Position numbers and translations under genes: made by a program. DNA of 45,901 bases, from the NCBI GenBank assembly GCA_905234465.1, contig CAJOHU010000004.1:1-45901 (forward strand), written 5' to 3'. How positions within the stretch are numbered: position 1 is the stretch's first letter; every line of letters starts with the position of its first letter. Shown piece after piece: positions 9,832 through 45,623 of this stretch. A model generated the notes under the pieces. That model saw only the letters and a program-made list of their open reading frames with translations, ran no database searches and was not told the DNA's origin. This stretch comes from an uncultured Alphaproteobacteria bacterium. GTDB taxonomy: Bacteria > Pseudomonadota > Alphaproteobacteria > Rs-D84.

Positions 9832-9868
9832 TTAGTGGTTAGTGATACTGGTTAGGGGTTAGTGGTTA
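9832..9868. repeat. TTAGTGG-type dispersed repeat
   Basis: TTAGTGGTTAGTGATACTGGTTAGGGGTTAGTGGTTAA abutting the stop of the 9866-10060 ORF. Confidence 0.7.
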
Positions 9869-10060
9869 AATAATATATGAATTTCCTTGTTTTCTGTCGT
9901 TTGCAAGACGATTTCCCAACCTTTGCGCCACAAACCCCAATATCGCAACAAATTCGCTTTGTTTTAATCTGAATTTGGGGTTGCGTTCAAAAAAGTATAA
10001 TAAATCACCATATAAAGATTTTTGGGCATATTCTGGTAGAACCTGATTTTTTTCTTTCAT
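9866..10060 (-). CDS. small hypothetical protein, RLxQSEFV family (64 aa)
   Basis: MKEKNQVLPEYAQKSLYGDLLYFFERNPKFRLKQSEFVAILGFVAQRLG...; SD AGGAAG upstream; paralogous to ORF at 45175. Confidence 0.7.
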   Translation of the reverse strand: MKEKNQVLPEYAQKSLYGDLLYFFERNPKFRLKQSEFVAILGFVAQRLGNRLANDRKQGNSYII

Positions 10061-10080
10061 CTTACTTCCTTTTTGAATCA

Positions 10081-10222
10081 AAAAAGCCATCTTTAATGAT
10101 GGCAGGAGGGTAAGAACTACTTTACACCAAATAGCCCGATGTATTGATTATTTCACCGGCCTCCTGCATAAGCAGAAGGTTATTTAATGTCGGCGCGCCG
10201 ACAGGTGCAAAGATGGTTCTTA
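10081..10222 (-). ncRNA. candidate structured attenuator leader, copy A
   Basis: Closing helix UAAGAAC/GUUCUUA + CUUUGCACC/GGUGUAAAG; H1 UGUCGGCGCGCCGACA; H2 CCUUCUGC-UUAU-GCAGGAGG; H3 CCGGUG/CAUCGG; downstream CCUCCUGC complementary to H2 3' arm; terminator GCCAUC/GAUGGC + U-run. Confidence 0.75.
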
Positions 10223-10253
10223 CTCCACCATATGACAATCGCCATACACGATA

Positions 10254-10282
10254 ATTATAAACATATTAATTTCTGATTGCAA
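10254..10282 (-). promoter_or_regulatory. sigma70-type promoter for leader A
   Basis: Minus strand TTGCAA (10282-10277), 17-nt spacer, TATAAT (10259-10254). Confidence 0.7.
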
Positions 10283-28474: not shown

Positions 28475-28741
28475 TTATTGACGTTGAAAACGTTGTAGAA
28501 AATTAAAAGTTTCCTGTTGTTTTTGTTCAACTTTTTCTTTATTTGATTGTTTTTTTGCGTCTCCTTTCGCTTTTTCTTGTTCTTTATATGCTCTTACAAC
28601 ATCACCGCGTAATGTATATATTGTTTTTGGACTTAAATTTACCAATTCACCATTTATTTCAAGACGAAAATTTCCTTCATAACTTCTGTCAAACAATAAC
28701 CGAAATATACATTCATTTGTTTCGTTTGAATACACATTCAT
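28475..28741 (-). CDS. small hypothetical protein (88 aa, alternative start inside the 28475-28822 ORF)
   Basis: MNVYSNETNECIFRLLFDRSYEGNFRLEINGELVNLSPKTIYTLRGDVVRAYKEQEKAK... Confidence 0.5.
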   Translation of the reverse strand: MNVYSNETNECIFRLLFDRSYEGNFRLEINGELVNLSPKTIYTLRGDVVRAYKEQEKAKGDAKKQSNKEKVEQKQQETFNFLQRFQRQ

Positions 28742-28838
28742 ACTGTTGATTTTCTTTTGGTTCAATCCTGACAGGACTTTTTTGTAATATATCTTGCAAC
28801 ATTTGTAAAGTTGCGTTTTCAAAGTGACTTGGCTGCAT
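28713..28838 (-). CDS. small hypothetical protein (41 aa), first ORF after leader B
   Basis: ATG with SD AAAGGA: MQPSHFENATLQMLQDILQKSPVRIEPKENQQYECVFKRNK*; overlaps next ORF in +1 frame. Confidence 0.5.
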   Translation of the reverse strand: MQPSHFENATLQMLQDILQKSPVRIEPKENQQYECVFKRNK

Positions 28839-28863: not shown

Positions 28864-29006
28864 AAAAAAACCACAAGAAATTATTTTCATGTGGTTGGAG
28901 TTCAGAAAACAATGCAGCATTGTCGTGCTTATTCAATATATTCACACACTCCAACCAATGGTTGGAAATTTAACGCAATCTTTTGCGGCTGCACGTGCTT
29001 TCTGAA
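28864..29006 (-). ncRNA. candidate structured attenuator leader, copy B
   Basis: Closing helix UUCAGAAA/UUUCUGAA + UGCAGC/GCUGCA; H1 CGCAA-AAGA-UUGCG; H2 UCCAACC-AUU-GGUUGGA; H3 GUG/CAC; downstream ACUCCAACC complementary to GGUUGGAGU; terminator AACCACA/UGUGGUU + U-run. Confidence 0.75.
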
Positions 29007-29092
29007 ACACATCCACGGAACACCCACGGACAATGTCACGTTAGCAAAAATTTAGACAAAAATCAATTAGAAAAAATATTTATGTTAAAAGT

Positions 29093-29173
29093 GTTAGTGG
29101 TTAGTAAAATCTGGAATAAGTTCACAATTACGAAATTATTCCAGATACCACTAACCACTTACACTAACCACTA
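29093..29173. repeat. inverted TTAGTGG repeats flanking an 11-bp terminator-like hairpin
   Basis: TTAGTGGTTAGT...ATCTGGAATAA/TTATTCCAGAT...CCACTAACCACTTACACTAACCACTAAA. Confidence 0.75.
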
Positions 29174-42196: not shown

Positions 42197-43834
42197 ATGA
42201 AAAATACAGATAAAAATTTTTTTGATGATGAACAGAATTCGGACAAGCCTTCTGTGCCTGCGGGTTTGGAACACGCCGATAACAAAGATATTGTTGAATA
42301 TCTGTTTTCAGAAGATAATCATCTGTTAACAGCGCCTGGGGGTGAATTTGAATTACCAAAAGAAACCCAGGGTTTATTGGCGTACTTTTCGGGTGGATGT
42401 ATTATAATTTCGCGTACGCATCGCTATGACGGGCGCGTTTTGGCGTTTATAGATTTGTTGCGCAAAAGAAATAAACCTGTAAGAACACCTTTTTATTCTG
42501 ATTTGGGTTTGGTTTCGGCGATATATAAGTATTATGAAAATAAACTTGGTGATGGTGCGCGTTCGCGTCTTGATTACAATAACCAAATGCAGAAAGATTT
42601 TGTTGATATTGTTGCCAAGGCCGCCGCACAAAAAGTTTCTGATATTCATATTGAGGTTGCAGACCAAACAACAATTTATTTCCGCATAGATGGCAGTATG
42701 CAGCCAGTGTTAGAATTTAATTCTGGGTGGGGCGAATCTTTTGTGCGCGCTGCGTTTGCGTCTGCGGATATATCAAATGCAAACTATGCGCAAAATGAAT
42801 ATCAATCTGCACAAAAAGATGGCCGTACACCATTACGCGGAACAAAAGATTTATATCTGCCCCAGGGGGTGTTGAGTATAAGAATGCAATTTAATCCGAT
42901 TGCGTTCGGTTCGCGTTATGTTGTTATGCGATTGCTGTATGATAATCCTTCGGAAAACATAACCAAAGAACAAGAATTTGGAAAATATGAACAAATATTG
43001 TTGCGGCGTCTGCGTTCGTATCCAACGGGTTTGGTTGTTGTTGCCGGTCCCACCAGTTCCGGTAAATCTACGACATTGGTTCGGAATATGGTGTTAATGT
43101 TAAAAGAACATAATTACGAAATAAACCTTATTACGGTTGAAGACCCGGTGGAACAGAAAATATTTGGCGCACACCAAATTCCGGTTGTGAACACCGCAAG
43201 TGAAGAACAACGCGAATCTGAATATACCGAAGCATTGGCGGCAGCATTGCGCAGTGACCCTGATACACTTATGGTTGGTGAAATACGAACATTGGCGGCG
43301 GCTCAGTTGACGGTTAAAGGTGCGTTGTCGGGTCATAATGTGTGGACGACACTGCATGCGAATTCTGCGATGGCGGCACTGGTGCGATTACTGGATATGG
43401 GGGTTGAGGCGTTTAAGTTAAAAGAAGAAACAATGATGCGTGGTTTGGTTTCTATGCGTTTATTTAAACGGCTGTGTCCGCATTGTCGTAAAAAATTATC
43501 CGAACATCCAGAATATGCAGAATACACACGTGTTATGGACGCGTTTGGTGAATTGGGATTGAATCAGGTCTATGTTCGTGGGGCGGGATGTGAACATTGT
43601 AATGGCACGGGTACATTTGGTCGTATCAAGGCCGGGGAAATTATTATCACAAACAGTGAGTTTCTGCGTCTTGCATTGGCAGGGAACACTGATGCCGCCG
43701 TTAAATACTGGTTGGAAGAAATGGATGGGCGGACATTAAAAGAATCTGCATGTGCATTGATGTTGCAGGGTATAATCGGGGTTGATGAATTAGAACGCTG
43801 GGTCGGATTATTGGACAGACCGGGGGTTTATTGA
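42197..43834 (+). CDS. PilQ/GspE-type type IV pilus assembly ATPase
   Basis: VVAGPTSSGKSTTLVRN, VEDPVEQKIFGAHQIPV, SDPDTLMVGEIRTLAAAQ. Confidence 0.9.
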   Translation: MKNTDKNFFDDEQNSDKPSVPAGLEHADNKDIVEYLFSEDNHLLTAPGGEFELPKETQGLLAYFSGGCIIISRTHRYDGRVLAFIDLLRKRNKPVRTPFYSDLGLVSAIYKYYENKLGDGARSRLDYNNQMQKDFVDIVAKAAAQKVSDIHIEVADQTTIYFRIDGSMQPVLEFNSGWGESFVRAAFASADISNANYAQNEYQSAQKDGRTPLRGTKDLYLPQGVLSIRMQFNPIAFGSRYVVMRLLYDNPSENITKEQEFGKYEQILLRRLRSYPTGLVVVAGPTSSGKSTTLVRNMVLMLKEHNYEINLITVEDPVEQKIFGAHQIPVVNTASEEQRESEYTEALAAALRSDPDTLMVGEIRTLAAAQLTVKGALSGHNVWTTLHANSAMAALVRLLDMGVEAFKLKEETMMRGLVSMRLFKRLCPHCRKKLSEHPEYAEYTRVMDAFGELGLNQVYVRGAGCEHCNGTGTFGRIKAGEIIITNSEFLRLALAGNTDAAVKYWLEEMDGRTLKESACALMLQGIIGVDELERWVGLLDRPGVY

Positions 43835-43835
43835 T

Positions 43836-44906
43836 ATGAATAAAATTGAAATTCTTTACGCCAAAATGATTTGCCGGTTTAGTAAAGACAAACGTATCGC
43901 GATTTGGCGTAAATTGGTTTCTTTGCTGAAAAATGATTTTACGTTGGTGAATGCGCTGAACAGATTACAGATGATAGAATCGCATGGTGGTGCCAAACCG
44001 AATGAACCATTTGCAATATGTATGCGCGAATGGGAAAAAAATCTTGAACGCGGAATGAGTTTTTCCGAAGCAACCCGTGGTTGGGTCCCGCCCGAAGAAA
44101 CATTACTGTTAACATCCGGGAATATGTCCAGTTTGATTGTGGCATTGGAAAATGTCGGGCGAATAATTGTTGCAAATAAAAGAATAGGGGGCGCCGTATT
44201 CAGCGCGATTGCGTATCCGACATTGTTGTTGGTTTTGGTGTTTGCAATAATTATTATGGTTGGGCTTTATTTGGTTCCGCCACTGTCCGCGGTTGCGGGT
44301 GAAGATATGGTTTGGTCGGGTGGGGCGGCATCACTTATATGGATATCAAACATTGCGGGAAAGTATTGGAAAATTTTTTCGGTTGCGGTGATTGTTATTG
44401 GTGTTGTTGTGTGGTTGTCTTTGCCGCGGTTTTCTGGACGTCTGCGTGCGGTGGCGGACAAATTACCGCCGTGGAGTATATATAAAATACGAATGTCTGT
44501 GGGGTGGATGATGTCATTGTCGGCCATGGTTGCCGCCGGGGTTGCGATACCTGATGCGATGCGTATGTTGGCGGATAATTCAAACAGATACATGCGGCGT
44601 ATTTTGGAAGAAACACTGCATTATATTGCAAACGGTGATAACCTTGGGAATGCGTTGCAAAATACGGGTATGGATTTTCCAAACCAAGAATTAATTGGTG
44701 ATTTGACTGTGTATGCCGATATGAACGATTTTGATGAAAACTTGACCCAGATTTCAAACGATTATTTGGAAAATTCAGTTAAAAAAATTGAATCTTTATC
44801 AGAAGCGTTGAATACAATTGGAATATTATTGATATCTGGGGTTATTGCATGGATAGTTCTAGGCACATTTCAGATGCAAGACCAAATCACGGCGTTTTTG
44901 AGTTAG
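43836..44906 (+). CDS. PilR/GspF-type pilus inner-membrane platform protein
   Basis: T2SSF-like duplicated membrane domain, follows pilus ATPase. Confidence 0.82.
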   Translation: MNKIEILYAKMICRFSKDKRIAIWRKLVSLLKNDFTLVNALNRLQMIESHGGAKPNEPFAICMREWEKNLERGMSFSEATRGWVPPEETLLLTSGNMSSLIVALENVGRIIVANKRIGGAVFSAIAYPTLLLVLVFAIIIMVGLYLVPPLSAVAGEDMVWSGGAASLIWISNIAGKYWKIFSVAVIVIGVVVWLSLPRFSGRLRAVADKLPPWSIYKIRMSVGWMMSLSAMVAAGVAIPDAMRMLADNSNRYMRRILEETLHYIANGDNLGNALQNTGMDFPNQELIGDLTVYADMNDFDENLTQISNDYLENSVKKIESLSEALNTIGILLISGVIAWIVLGTFQMQDQITAFLS

Positions 44907-44932
44907 TGGTTAGTGATAGTGTTAGTGGTTAG
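44904..44932. repeat. TTAGTGG-type repeat overlapping the GspF-like stop
   Basis: AGTTAGTGGTTAGTGATAGTGTTAGTGGTTAGTG; TAG is the stop codon. Confidence 0.75.
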
Positions 44933-45006
44933 TGTTTTTTTTGTTTGATTTTTAATTGATTTTATTATATCTTTTCCGTGTCGGCAGGTGTTCTGTTGAT
45001 AGGGTG

Positions 45007-45160
45007 TCACAGCCCTTTAATAAATCTAGGTGTCAGCGATGACATAAAAAATCCAGCCATTGGTTGGATGGGGTGATATATATAAATAAACCCACTATTT
45101 ACCTAGATTTATAGCTGTGAACATCCAACCGTCAAAAATTTTTTTAGGCGGTTTTTTATT
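45007..45160 (+). ncRNA. candidate structured attenuator leader, copy C
   Basis: Closing helix UCACAGC/GCUGUGA + 12-bp AUAAAUCUAGGU/ACCUAGAUUUAU; H1 GUCA-GCGA-UGAC; H2 AUCCAGCC-AUU-GGUUGGAU; H3 GGG/CCC; downstream CAUCCAACC complementary to GGUUGGAUG; terminator AACCGUC/GGCGGUU + UUUUUUAUUUUU. Confidence 0.8.
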
Positions 45161-45174
45161 TTTAATAAACAAAG

Positions 45175-45333
45175 GTGGAAAAAATAAGAAAAATAAAAAA
45201 CGCAGAATCACAAGAATTATTGATAAATGCGCTGCTTGATTTTTATTCTAAACATCGCGGATACAGGTTGTCACAATCAGAATTTGTTGGTTTGGTTTGC
45301 GCACTGTCGCAACAAATGTTAAGTGATATATAG
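45175..45333 (+). CDS. small hypothetical protein, RLxQSEFV family (52 aa, GTG start)
   Basis: VEKIRKIKNAESQELLINALLDFYSKHRGYRLSQSEFVGLVCALSQQMLSDI*; below ORF-track cutoff; paralogous to 9866-10060. Confidence 0.6.
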   Translation: MEKIRKIKNAESQELLINALLDFYSKHRGYRLSQSEFVGLVCALSQQMLSDI

Positions 45334-45336
45334 TTA

Positions 45337-45372
45337 TTAGTGGTTAGTGATAGTGGTTAGGGGTTAGTGTTA
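45337..45372. repeat. TTAGTGG-type repeat
   Basis: ATTAGTGGTTAGTGATAGTGGTTAGGGGTTAGTGTTAG. Confidence 0.75.
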
Positions 45373-45375
45373 GTT

Positions 45376-45600
45376 TCCACTTCGCCAAGGCTTCGTGGAA
45401 CAAGGGTTAGTATTCCAGATAATCGTCACACCGCCGAAGGGCGGTGCAAGTTCCCCTCCATTGGAGGGGTGGCGGGTAGCCCCCGCCGGGGTGGTCAGAG
45501 AATACAGAATAATAACGAATGCTCTAACCACCTCCCGGTGTTCCACACCGTACTCCTCCACAGGAGGAGAACCGGGTCTGTGGAATATGGTTTACAAAGC
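45376..45600. repeat. composite of short GC-rich palindromes
   Basis: TTCCACTTCGCCAAGGCTTCGTGGAA; CCCCTCCATTGGAGGGG; GGCGGGTAGCCCCCGCC; CTCCTCCACAGGAGGAG. Confidence 0.6.
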
Positions 45601-45623
45601 AAAGTTTCCGGGCGGTTGAGTGG

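Follow-up and report, generated by a model that had tools for sequence, protein, structure and literature searches.

Probable attenuator-type leader RNAs of Candidatus Enterousia form a widespread family with a core distantly related to sRNA-Xcc1

Riboswitches that terminate transcription and occur in many copies, such as those for c-di-GMP, combine a conserved domain with mutually exclusive terminator and antiterminator pairing, and they serve many unrelated genes per genome. Another described multicopy RNA is sRNA-Xcc1 (Rfam RF02221), which was cloned and detected as a discrete RNA of 88 nt (PMC2996969). The integron cassette most widespread in Xanthomonas carries it ahead of symE (PMC12444791), and in Xylella five copies form a cluster (PMC12189769). 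It is called a trans-acting sRNA in the title of Chen et al. 2011, cited in PMC12444791, and its Rfam type is ‘Gene; sRNA’. Our literature search found no account of a cis role for sRNA-Xcc1 or of the Enterousia family described here.

The window, i.e. the whole stretch of 45,901 nucleotides that was analysed, comes from a genome of 904 kb in 32 contigs belonging to Candidatus Enterousia, an uncultured gut alphaproteobacterium. Its order, Rs-D84, has reduced genomes and a lifestyle presumed to be that of an obligate symbiont or parasite (PMC12306168). Three copies of a leader RNA are found in the window. The first-pass annotation had described copy C (plus strand) as a four-helix junction with a pseudoknot and had stated that the layout recurs as copies A and B; both are indeed present, and both lie on the minus strand, which it left unstated. 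We consider it probable (roughly 0.72) that every copy forms the 5′ leader of the gene behind it and attenuates transcription by folding in two ways that exclude each other, with a core distantly related to sRNA-Xcc1. The parts of copy C are listed below, where R3 is the core model, trained on alphaproteobacterial copies only.

44941–44968, plus: candidate promoter in the sequence, TTGTTT (44941–44946), 16 nt, TATTAT (44963–44968)
44979–45001, plus: 5′-most hairpin with GUGUU loop (computed fold); a UGUU/UGAU-loop version lies upstream of other copies
45007–45120, plus: P0, 45007–45013 with 45114–45120; double changes in 7/7 pairs, 96% of cells paired (104 copies)
45020–45112, plus: P1, 12 bp in the sequence, 45020–45031 with 45101–45112; covariation in 104 copies
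45031–45044, plus: H1 hairpin; double changes in 4/4 pairs, 97% paired (104 copies)
45051–45069, plus: H2, 45051–45058 with 45062–45069; double changes in 5/8 pairs, 94% paired
45062–45130, plus: conserved core, a three-way junction; 49.8 bits with R3
45062–45130, plus: core helices by the 96-copy core alignment, PC 45062–45070/45122–45130, H3 45070–45093, H4 45095–45098/45111–45114
45127–45157, plus: intrinsic terminator in the sequence, AACCGUC/GGCGGUU and U-run, 5′ arm starting inside PC
45175–45333, plus: 52-aa ORF with GTG 45175 as candidate start codon; small-protein family in common with ORF A and downstream ORFs of other genomes

Every pairing that had been proposed for copy C is present at these positions, and the single-stranded parts said to be conserved are so. 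The 9-bp pairing PC joins CATCCAACC (45122–45130) to GGTTGGATG (45062–45070), the anti-core strand is the 5′ arm of H2, and H3 carries the conserved AAUA. The shared strands confirm that H2 and this pairing exclude each other, as do this pairing and the terminator. The interpretation of the folds has to be changed: the ‘pseudoknot’ is the helix that closes the core, and the four-helix junction is the alternative fold. H1 is optional in the family and absent from some copies.

Several other features of the window were seen near the copies. Genes of the T2SSE and T2SSF families (secretion/pilus) occupy 42197–44906 and end just 5′ of copy C. An intergenic motif resembling GTGGTTAGTGTTAGTGG recurs in both orientations at 44905–44935, 29085–29170 and 45330–45410, and GC-rich palindromic intergenic repeats (e.g. 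CCCCTCCATTGGAGGGG) at 45420–45620 were weak H2 mimics in the search with R1, the model of the three window copies. Integron attC sites have outer arms of the consensus RYYYAAC...GTTRRRY. An attC site was considered for the GTT/AAC arms and set aside, the outer arms being GTTGGAG...CTCCAAC, in the opposite order.

Copies A and B are organised similarly, their RNAs running from 10230 to 10101 and from 29012 to 28893. R2 is the full-length model, built on 82 copies.

10254–10282, minus: copy A promoter in the sequence, TTGCAA (10282–10277), 17 nt, TATAAT (10259–10254)
10101–10230, minus: copy A leader; 73.8 bits with R2, 53.7 bits with R3
10222–10111, minus: copy A upstream pairings, P0 10222–10216/10117–10111, P1 about 10210–10204/10128–10122, H1 10203–10188, H2 10178–10171/10168–10161
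10168–10101, minus: copy A core, PC 10168–10160/10109–10101, H4 10134–10131/10120–10117
10080–10103, minus: copy A terminator in the sequence, GCCAUC/GAUGGC and U6, overlapping PC
9866–10060, minus: copy A 64-aa ORF, homologue of ORF C
28893–29012, minus: copy B leader; 86.2 bits with R2, 60.2 bits with R3
29004–28903, minus: copy B upstream pairings, P0 29004–28998/28909–28903, H1 28987–28974, H2 28967–28960/28956–28949
28956–28893, minus: copy B core, PC 28956–28949/28901–28893
28864–28894, minus: copy B terminator in the sequence, CCACA/UGUGG-type hairpin and U-run, overlapping PC
28713–28838, minus: copy B 41-aa ORF with ATG and AAGG Shine-Dalgarno (SD), U-run 25 nt before

A tiny ORF had been reported after each copy. 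Those of A and C encode homologous proteins, as seen by alignment and by a search of the genome with ORF A, in which ORF C was the sole other match (E = 0.011); the 41-aa ORF of copy B is unrelated to both. Pfam returned no match for ORF C, and searching the proteins of 40 relatives with ORF A gave no convincing homologue, the A/C family having come to light only via the RNA. At 9866–10060 and 45175–45333 and at four loci elsewhere (L038, L040, L106, L109), fast-evolving proteins of 50–90 aa are encoded directly 3′ of the RNA; they carry a motif around F..NPxY/F and have no confident Pfam match.

Covariance models were built starting from the three copies. Plain MAFFT put H1 and H2 in the wrong places, and the first model was bootstrapped from hand-trimmed copy sequences, all later ones being made from unaltered sequence. 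R1 scores its own three copies at 69–88 bits, by construction, and has matches in nearly all genomes of the same genus. The proposed search of related genomes thus had a clear outcome: with R2 the element is present in 179 of the 201 genomes of the order, where the per-genome copy counts are lower bounds (at least the number given), up to 17 candidates having been scored per genome. As models derived from the window copies match well over 100 additional copies elsewhere, in genomes other than this one, the pairings in the window are not due to chance. Outside the genus, R3 found the core in 27 of the Alphaproteobacteria sampled (about 381), for the most part with small genomes; among 399 Pseudomonadota it found the core in 5, besides two Enterousia genomes within that sample. 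Counted without palindromic reverse-strand matches, R3 copies number 8 in the window genome, about 24 in the single-contig genome G043 and about 48 in G010. The MAGs in which a pattern scan of GTDB contigs detected the motif bear the titles Candidatus Enterousia or uncultured Alphaproteobacteria, and many of them come from ruminant and other animal guts.

The covariation claimed from three copies held in 104. Their alignment contains 745 double-sided changes (210 ± 14 in shuffles), a covariation score of 0.532 (0.165 shuffled) and 91.4% paired cells (70.3% shuffled, 35–44% in slid controls), with P0, P1, H1, H3, H4 and PC all covarying. In a 96-copy alignment of the core from several alphaproteobacterial lineages, 95% of cells are paired and 224 show double changes, against 59 after shuffling; PC reaches 99% pairing, and 7/9 of its pairs show double changes, while for H4 the figures are 92% and 4/4. 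These shuffle counts are not probabilities, as the alignments hold related sequences and one of them (A13) was fitted to a model. An unsupervised scan of column pairs recovered P0, P1, H1, H3 and an extension of PC.

The order of parts, promoter, leader, terminator, SD and gene, is conserved together with these pairings. The 5′ part of the leader comprises the promoter, a hairpin with UGUU/UGAU-type loop, a GGG...CCC hairpin whose loop is the 5′ strand of P0, and the 5′ strand of P1. Optional H1, UUAAA and the 5′ arm of H2 follow, and then the core of about 67 nt, a three-way junction closed by PC: PC 5′ strand, H3 (with invariant unpaired nucleotides and a conserved GAAUA/GAAUA loop), H4 5′ strand, H4 loop, H4 3′ strand, junction and PC 3′ strand. 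The terminator starts inside PC and is succeeded by the SD and the start codon. A −10-like box is present in 126 of 171 copies, in a sharp peak at a median of 31 nt 5′ of the motif start (shuffled rate 40%), and an ATG with an SD of at least 4 nt follows 126 of 172 copies at a median of 51 nt. A leader-peptide mechanism was also considered; the variation in the lengths of P1 and of the loops ignores codon frame.

P0, P1 and H2 are formed by upstream segments that are complementary to segments of the core. The 3′ arm of H2 is the 5′ strand of PC, the H4 loop is the 3′ strand of P1, and the core junction is the 3′ strand of P0. The first-pass annotation had staked its reading on homologues retaining the PC complementarity, and they do: of 172 copies, 149 have all 9 pairs of PC, where permuting the partners yields 58 on average. 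H2 is complete (8/8) in 82 of the same copies, so the downstream pairing is better kept than H2. It is also under separate selection, since the column beside but outside H2 (101–158) covaries on its own. A terminator-like hairpin begins at, or within the last 4 nt of, PC in 164 of 172 copies; hence the conserved, covarying PC excludes the terminator by overlapping its 5′ arm. An attenuator would be expected to look like this, with a promoter 5′, an intrinsic terminator ahead of the gene and a short distance to SD and ATG, and the earlier assignment to cis-regulatory leaders of the riboswitch or attenuator class, with exclusive pairings and a downstream ORF, was right.

According to this model, P0, P1 and H2 would sequester strands of the core in fold I, leaving the PC 3′ strand free to start the terminator, and transcription would stop (predicted OFF). 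In fold II the core would form through PC, H3 and H4 and capture the 5′ arm of the terminator, and the polymerase would continue into the gene (predicted ON). Some factor, be it a ligand, a protein or the RNA itself in its short, terminated form, would bind the core and shift the balance between the folds in the cell. In nested folding, in which pseudoknots are unscored, the H2 fold has the lower energy for 106 of 125 copies, the mean difference being 8.4 kcal/mol, so termination is likely the default. One objection to the balance as drawn is that PC might form alongside P0 and P1, at the expense of H2 alone.

The window copies match no Rfam family, as had been supposed; scans of these and of other Enterousia members returned only tRNAs. 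Even at E values up to 5, RF02221 does not match the window copies, and by its gathering cut-off (53 bits) they are not members. The class is nevertheless not an entirely undescribed one, since the core, judged from the shared fold and conserved nucleotides and from linking intermediates, is a distant relative of RF02221. The best scores of RF02221 on other alphaproteobacterial copies are weak (L320, 33.8 bits; L319, 30.0 bits). In the other direction, R3 matches outside the Alphaproteobacteria coincide with RF02221 loci in place and strand: R3 finds one such locus at 50.0 bits (E 6e-10, 4.7-Mb genome), and Rfam confirms R3-found loci at 75.5, 71.8 and 69.9 bits. The core fold is already known, and what is new is its extension into a long attenuator-type leader, the number of copies and the set of genes that it would control.

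The RF02221 core lies tens of nt 5′ of SymE toxins (PF08845), KilA-N and P22_AR_N antirepressors and small uncharacterised proteins. DNA similar to it is found just 5′ of ant in the phages Aaphi23 and Rac-SA53, the core being confirmed by R3 in Rac-SA53 only; plasmids scanned by BLAST with an RF02221 locus gave no matches. The H4 loop/junction of RF02221 copies is complementary to their own downstream leader (−17.3 kcal/mol, against −13.2 for other loci; p 4e-7), the partner including the SD core in 26 of 31 loci, and also to upstream sequence (p 3e-10). The position before SymE and antirepressors, taken with complementarity to the SD region, suggests that RF02221, annotated as a trans-acting sRNA, may be cis-acting as well. 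Copies complementary to the SD region of the gene just 3′ are L309, L312, L322–L351 and L353.

The genes that follow the Enterousia leaders are diverse, their proteins forming 62 unrelated clusters. They include secreted and envelope proteins, porins, glycosyltransferases, an ABC exporter, small HTH proteins, a Bro-N antirepressor and the tiny protein family. By a crude hydrophobicity rule, applied equally to both sets, 74 of 126 downstream genes and 11 of 36 window genes encode a hydrophobic N-terminus. Five further copies lie in the window genome outside the window: L305, L306 and L354 precede near-identical HTH proteins, L040 a member of the ORF A/C family and L065 a protein with hydrophobic N-terminus. 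Tandem RNA arrays occur at L102, L088, L099, L056 and L109, with units roughly 75–240 nt apart, some of them bare core. Many array units have promoter and terminator, and an ORF is found only 3′ of the last unit. As the core also stands alone in such arrays, it appears to be the functional domain; a pure leader role does not account for the approximately 20 array copies without an ORF of their own.

What acts on the core can be envisaged in two ways. As a special case of the attenuator, the core might be an aptamer for a small molecule, perhaps a second messenger, by which genes of the cell surface and of regulation are switched on. Its compactness, the invariant unpaired nucleotides of H3, the attenuator layout and the many copies ahead of unrelated envelope and regulator genes are in keeping with such an orphan riboswitch. 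We nevertheless hold it to be rather unlikely, as the gene set indicates no single metabolite or ligand candidate and the H4 loop and junction, varying with their own partner strand, cannot be a fixed binding site. Alternatively, the terminated leader could be a stable sRNA acting on the read-through mRNA of its own gene, or on other copies. Such a mode would resemble IsrK, which lies upstream of an antirepressor and employs terminator read-through and alternative structures (PMC4825925), and it would suit the discrete 88-nt sRNA-Xcc1 (PMC2996969), the RF02221 copies ahead of antirepressors and SymE with complementarity to their own SD region, and the stand-alone core arrays. In the Alphaproteobacteria, the H4 loop showed no significant complementarity towards the leader downstream (p 0.09 and 0.07), which makes this mode unlikely as well.

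That these are ordinary trans-acting sRNA genes, adjoining their neighbours by chance, would agree with the Rfam annotation and with arrays whose units have their own promoters and lack ORFs. It is quite improbable given the tightly spaced ATG and SD after the terminator. Moreover, in the Alphaproteobacteria the H4-loop/junction strand is complementary to its own upstream leader, with −17.7 kcal/mol against −10.6 for the leaders of other copies (p 3e-34). Locus-specific complementarity of this kind is most simply explained by intramolecular pairing and argues against general trans action. An element acting as DNA, i.e. an attC site or a mobile palindrome, is suggested by the integron cassettes that carry sRNA-Xcc1 (PMC12444791) and by the numerous copies of varying number; it is very improbable, as promoter and terminator flank a strand-specific RNA and P0 and P1 are unique to each copy. 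Least credible is the type III toxin-antitoxin-like unit raised in the first-pass annotation, in which a structured RNA neutralises a small protein. Structured RNA, terminator, small ORF and occasional tandem repeats fit this description. Against it, single RNA copies predominate, the genes downstream encode unrelated products, secreted proteins, porins and glycosyltransferases among them, family scans of 123 of these proteins showed no ToxN/CptN/TenpN-type toxin among the most frequent families listed, and the families listed by PADLOC include no type III toxin.

Returning to the attenuator, we suggest tentatively, at somewhat less than even odds, a superfamily of orphan RNA switches with sRNA-Xcc1 as one branch. 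Its three-way-junction core would sense a common signal and set the expression of surface and regulatory genes, with as many as about 48 sites in a 1-Mb genome. Unusually, the partner for the alternative pairing would be copy-specific; it lies upstream in the Alphaproteobacteria, and in RF02221 it lies upstream and also downstream, at the SD. If so, one type of switch would govern dozens of genes in a bacterium with about 900 genes, a very dense use of attenuation, and many of these genes encode surface proteins, the contact of a presumed symbiont with its host. sRNA-Xcc1, reported as trans-acting and virulence-associated, would be reread as a cis-acting switch, as its position and SD complementarity suggest. 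The attenuator model predicts effects of compensatory mutations and of ligand or protein binding.

Compared with known systems, the Enterousia leaders share with terminating riboswitches the conserved domain, the exclusive terminator/antiterminator pairing and the many unrelated genes per genome; unlike in these, the anti-core lies upstream of the core instead of downstream, and the H4 loop and junction are variable. With the ToxIN class they have in common a structured RNA, a terminator and a small ORF, but their genes are heterogeneous and mostly non-toxin, and the RNA is usually single, without a short-repeat array. IsrK of the Salmonella Gifsy-1 prophage (PMC4825925) is likewise a leader with terminator read-through and alternative structures, in its case controlling a gene next to an antirepressor; its short form activates translation in trans. 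Closest is RF02221, with the same closing helix, H3 with GAAUA...GAAUAA, H4 and junction; its copies, too, occur in a cluster, as in Xylella (PMC12189769), or ahead of a gene, as with symE (PMC12444791). The Enterousia copies differ from it in falling below its cut-off, usually undetected by it, and in their strong terminator overlapping PC, whereas RF02221 copies also pair with the downstream SD region.
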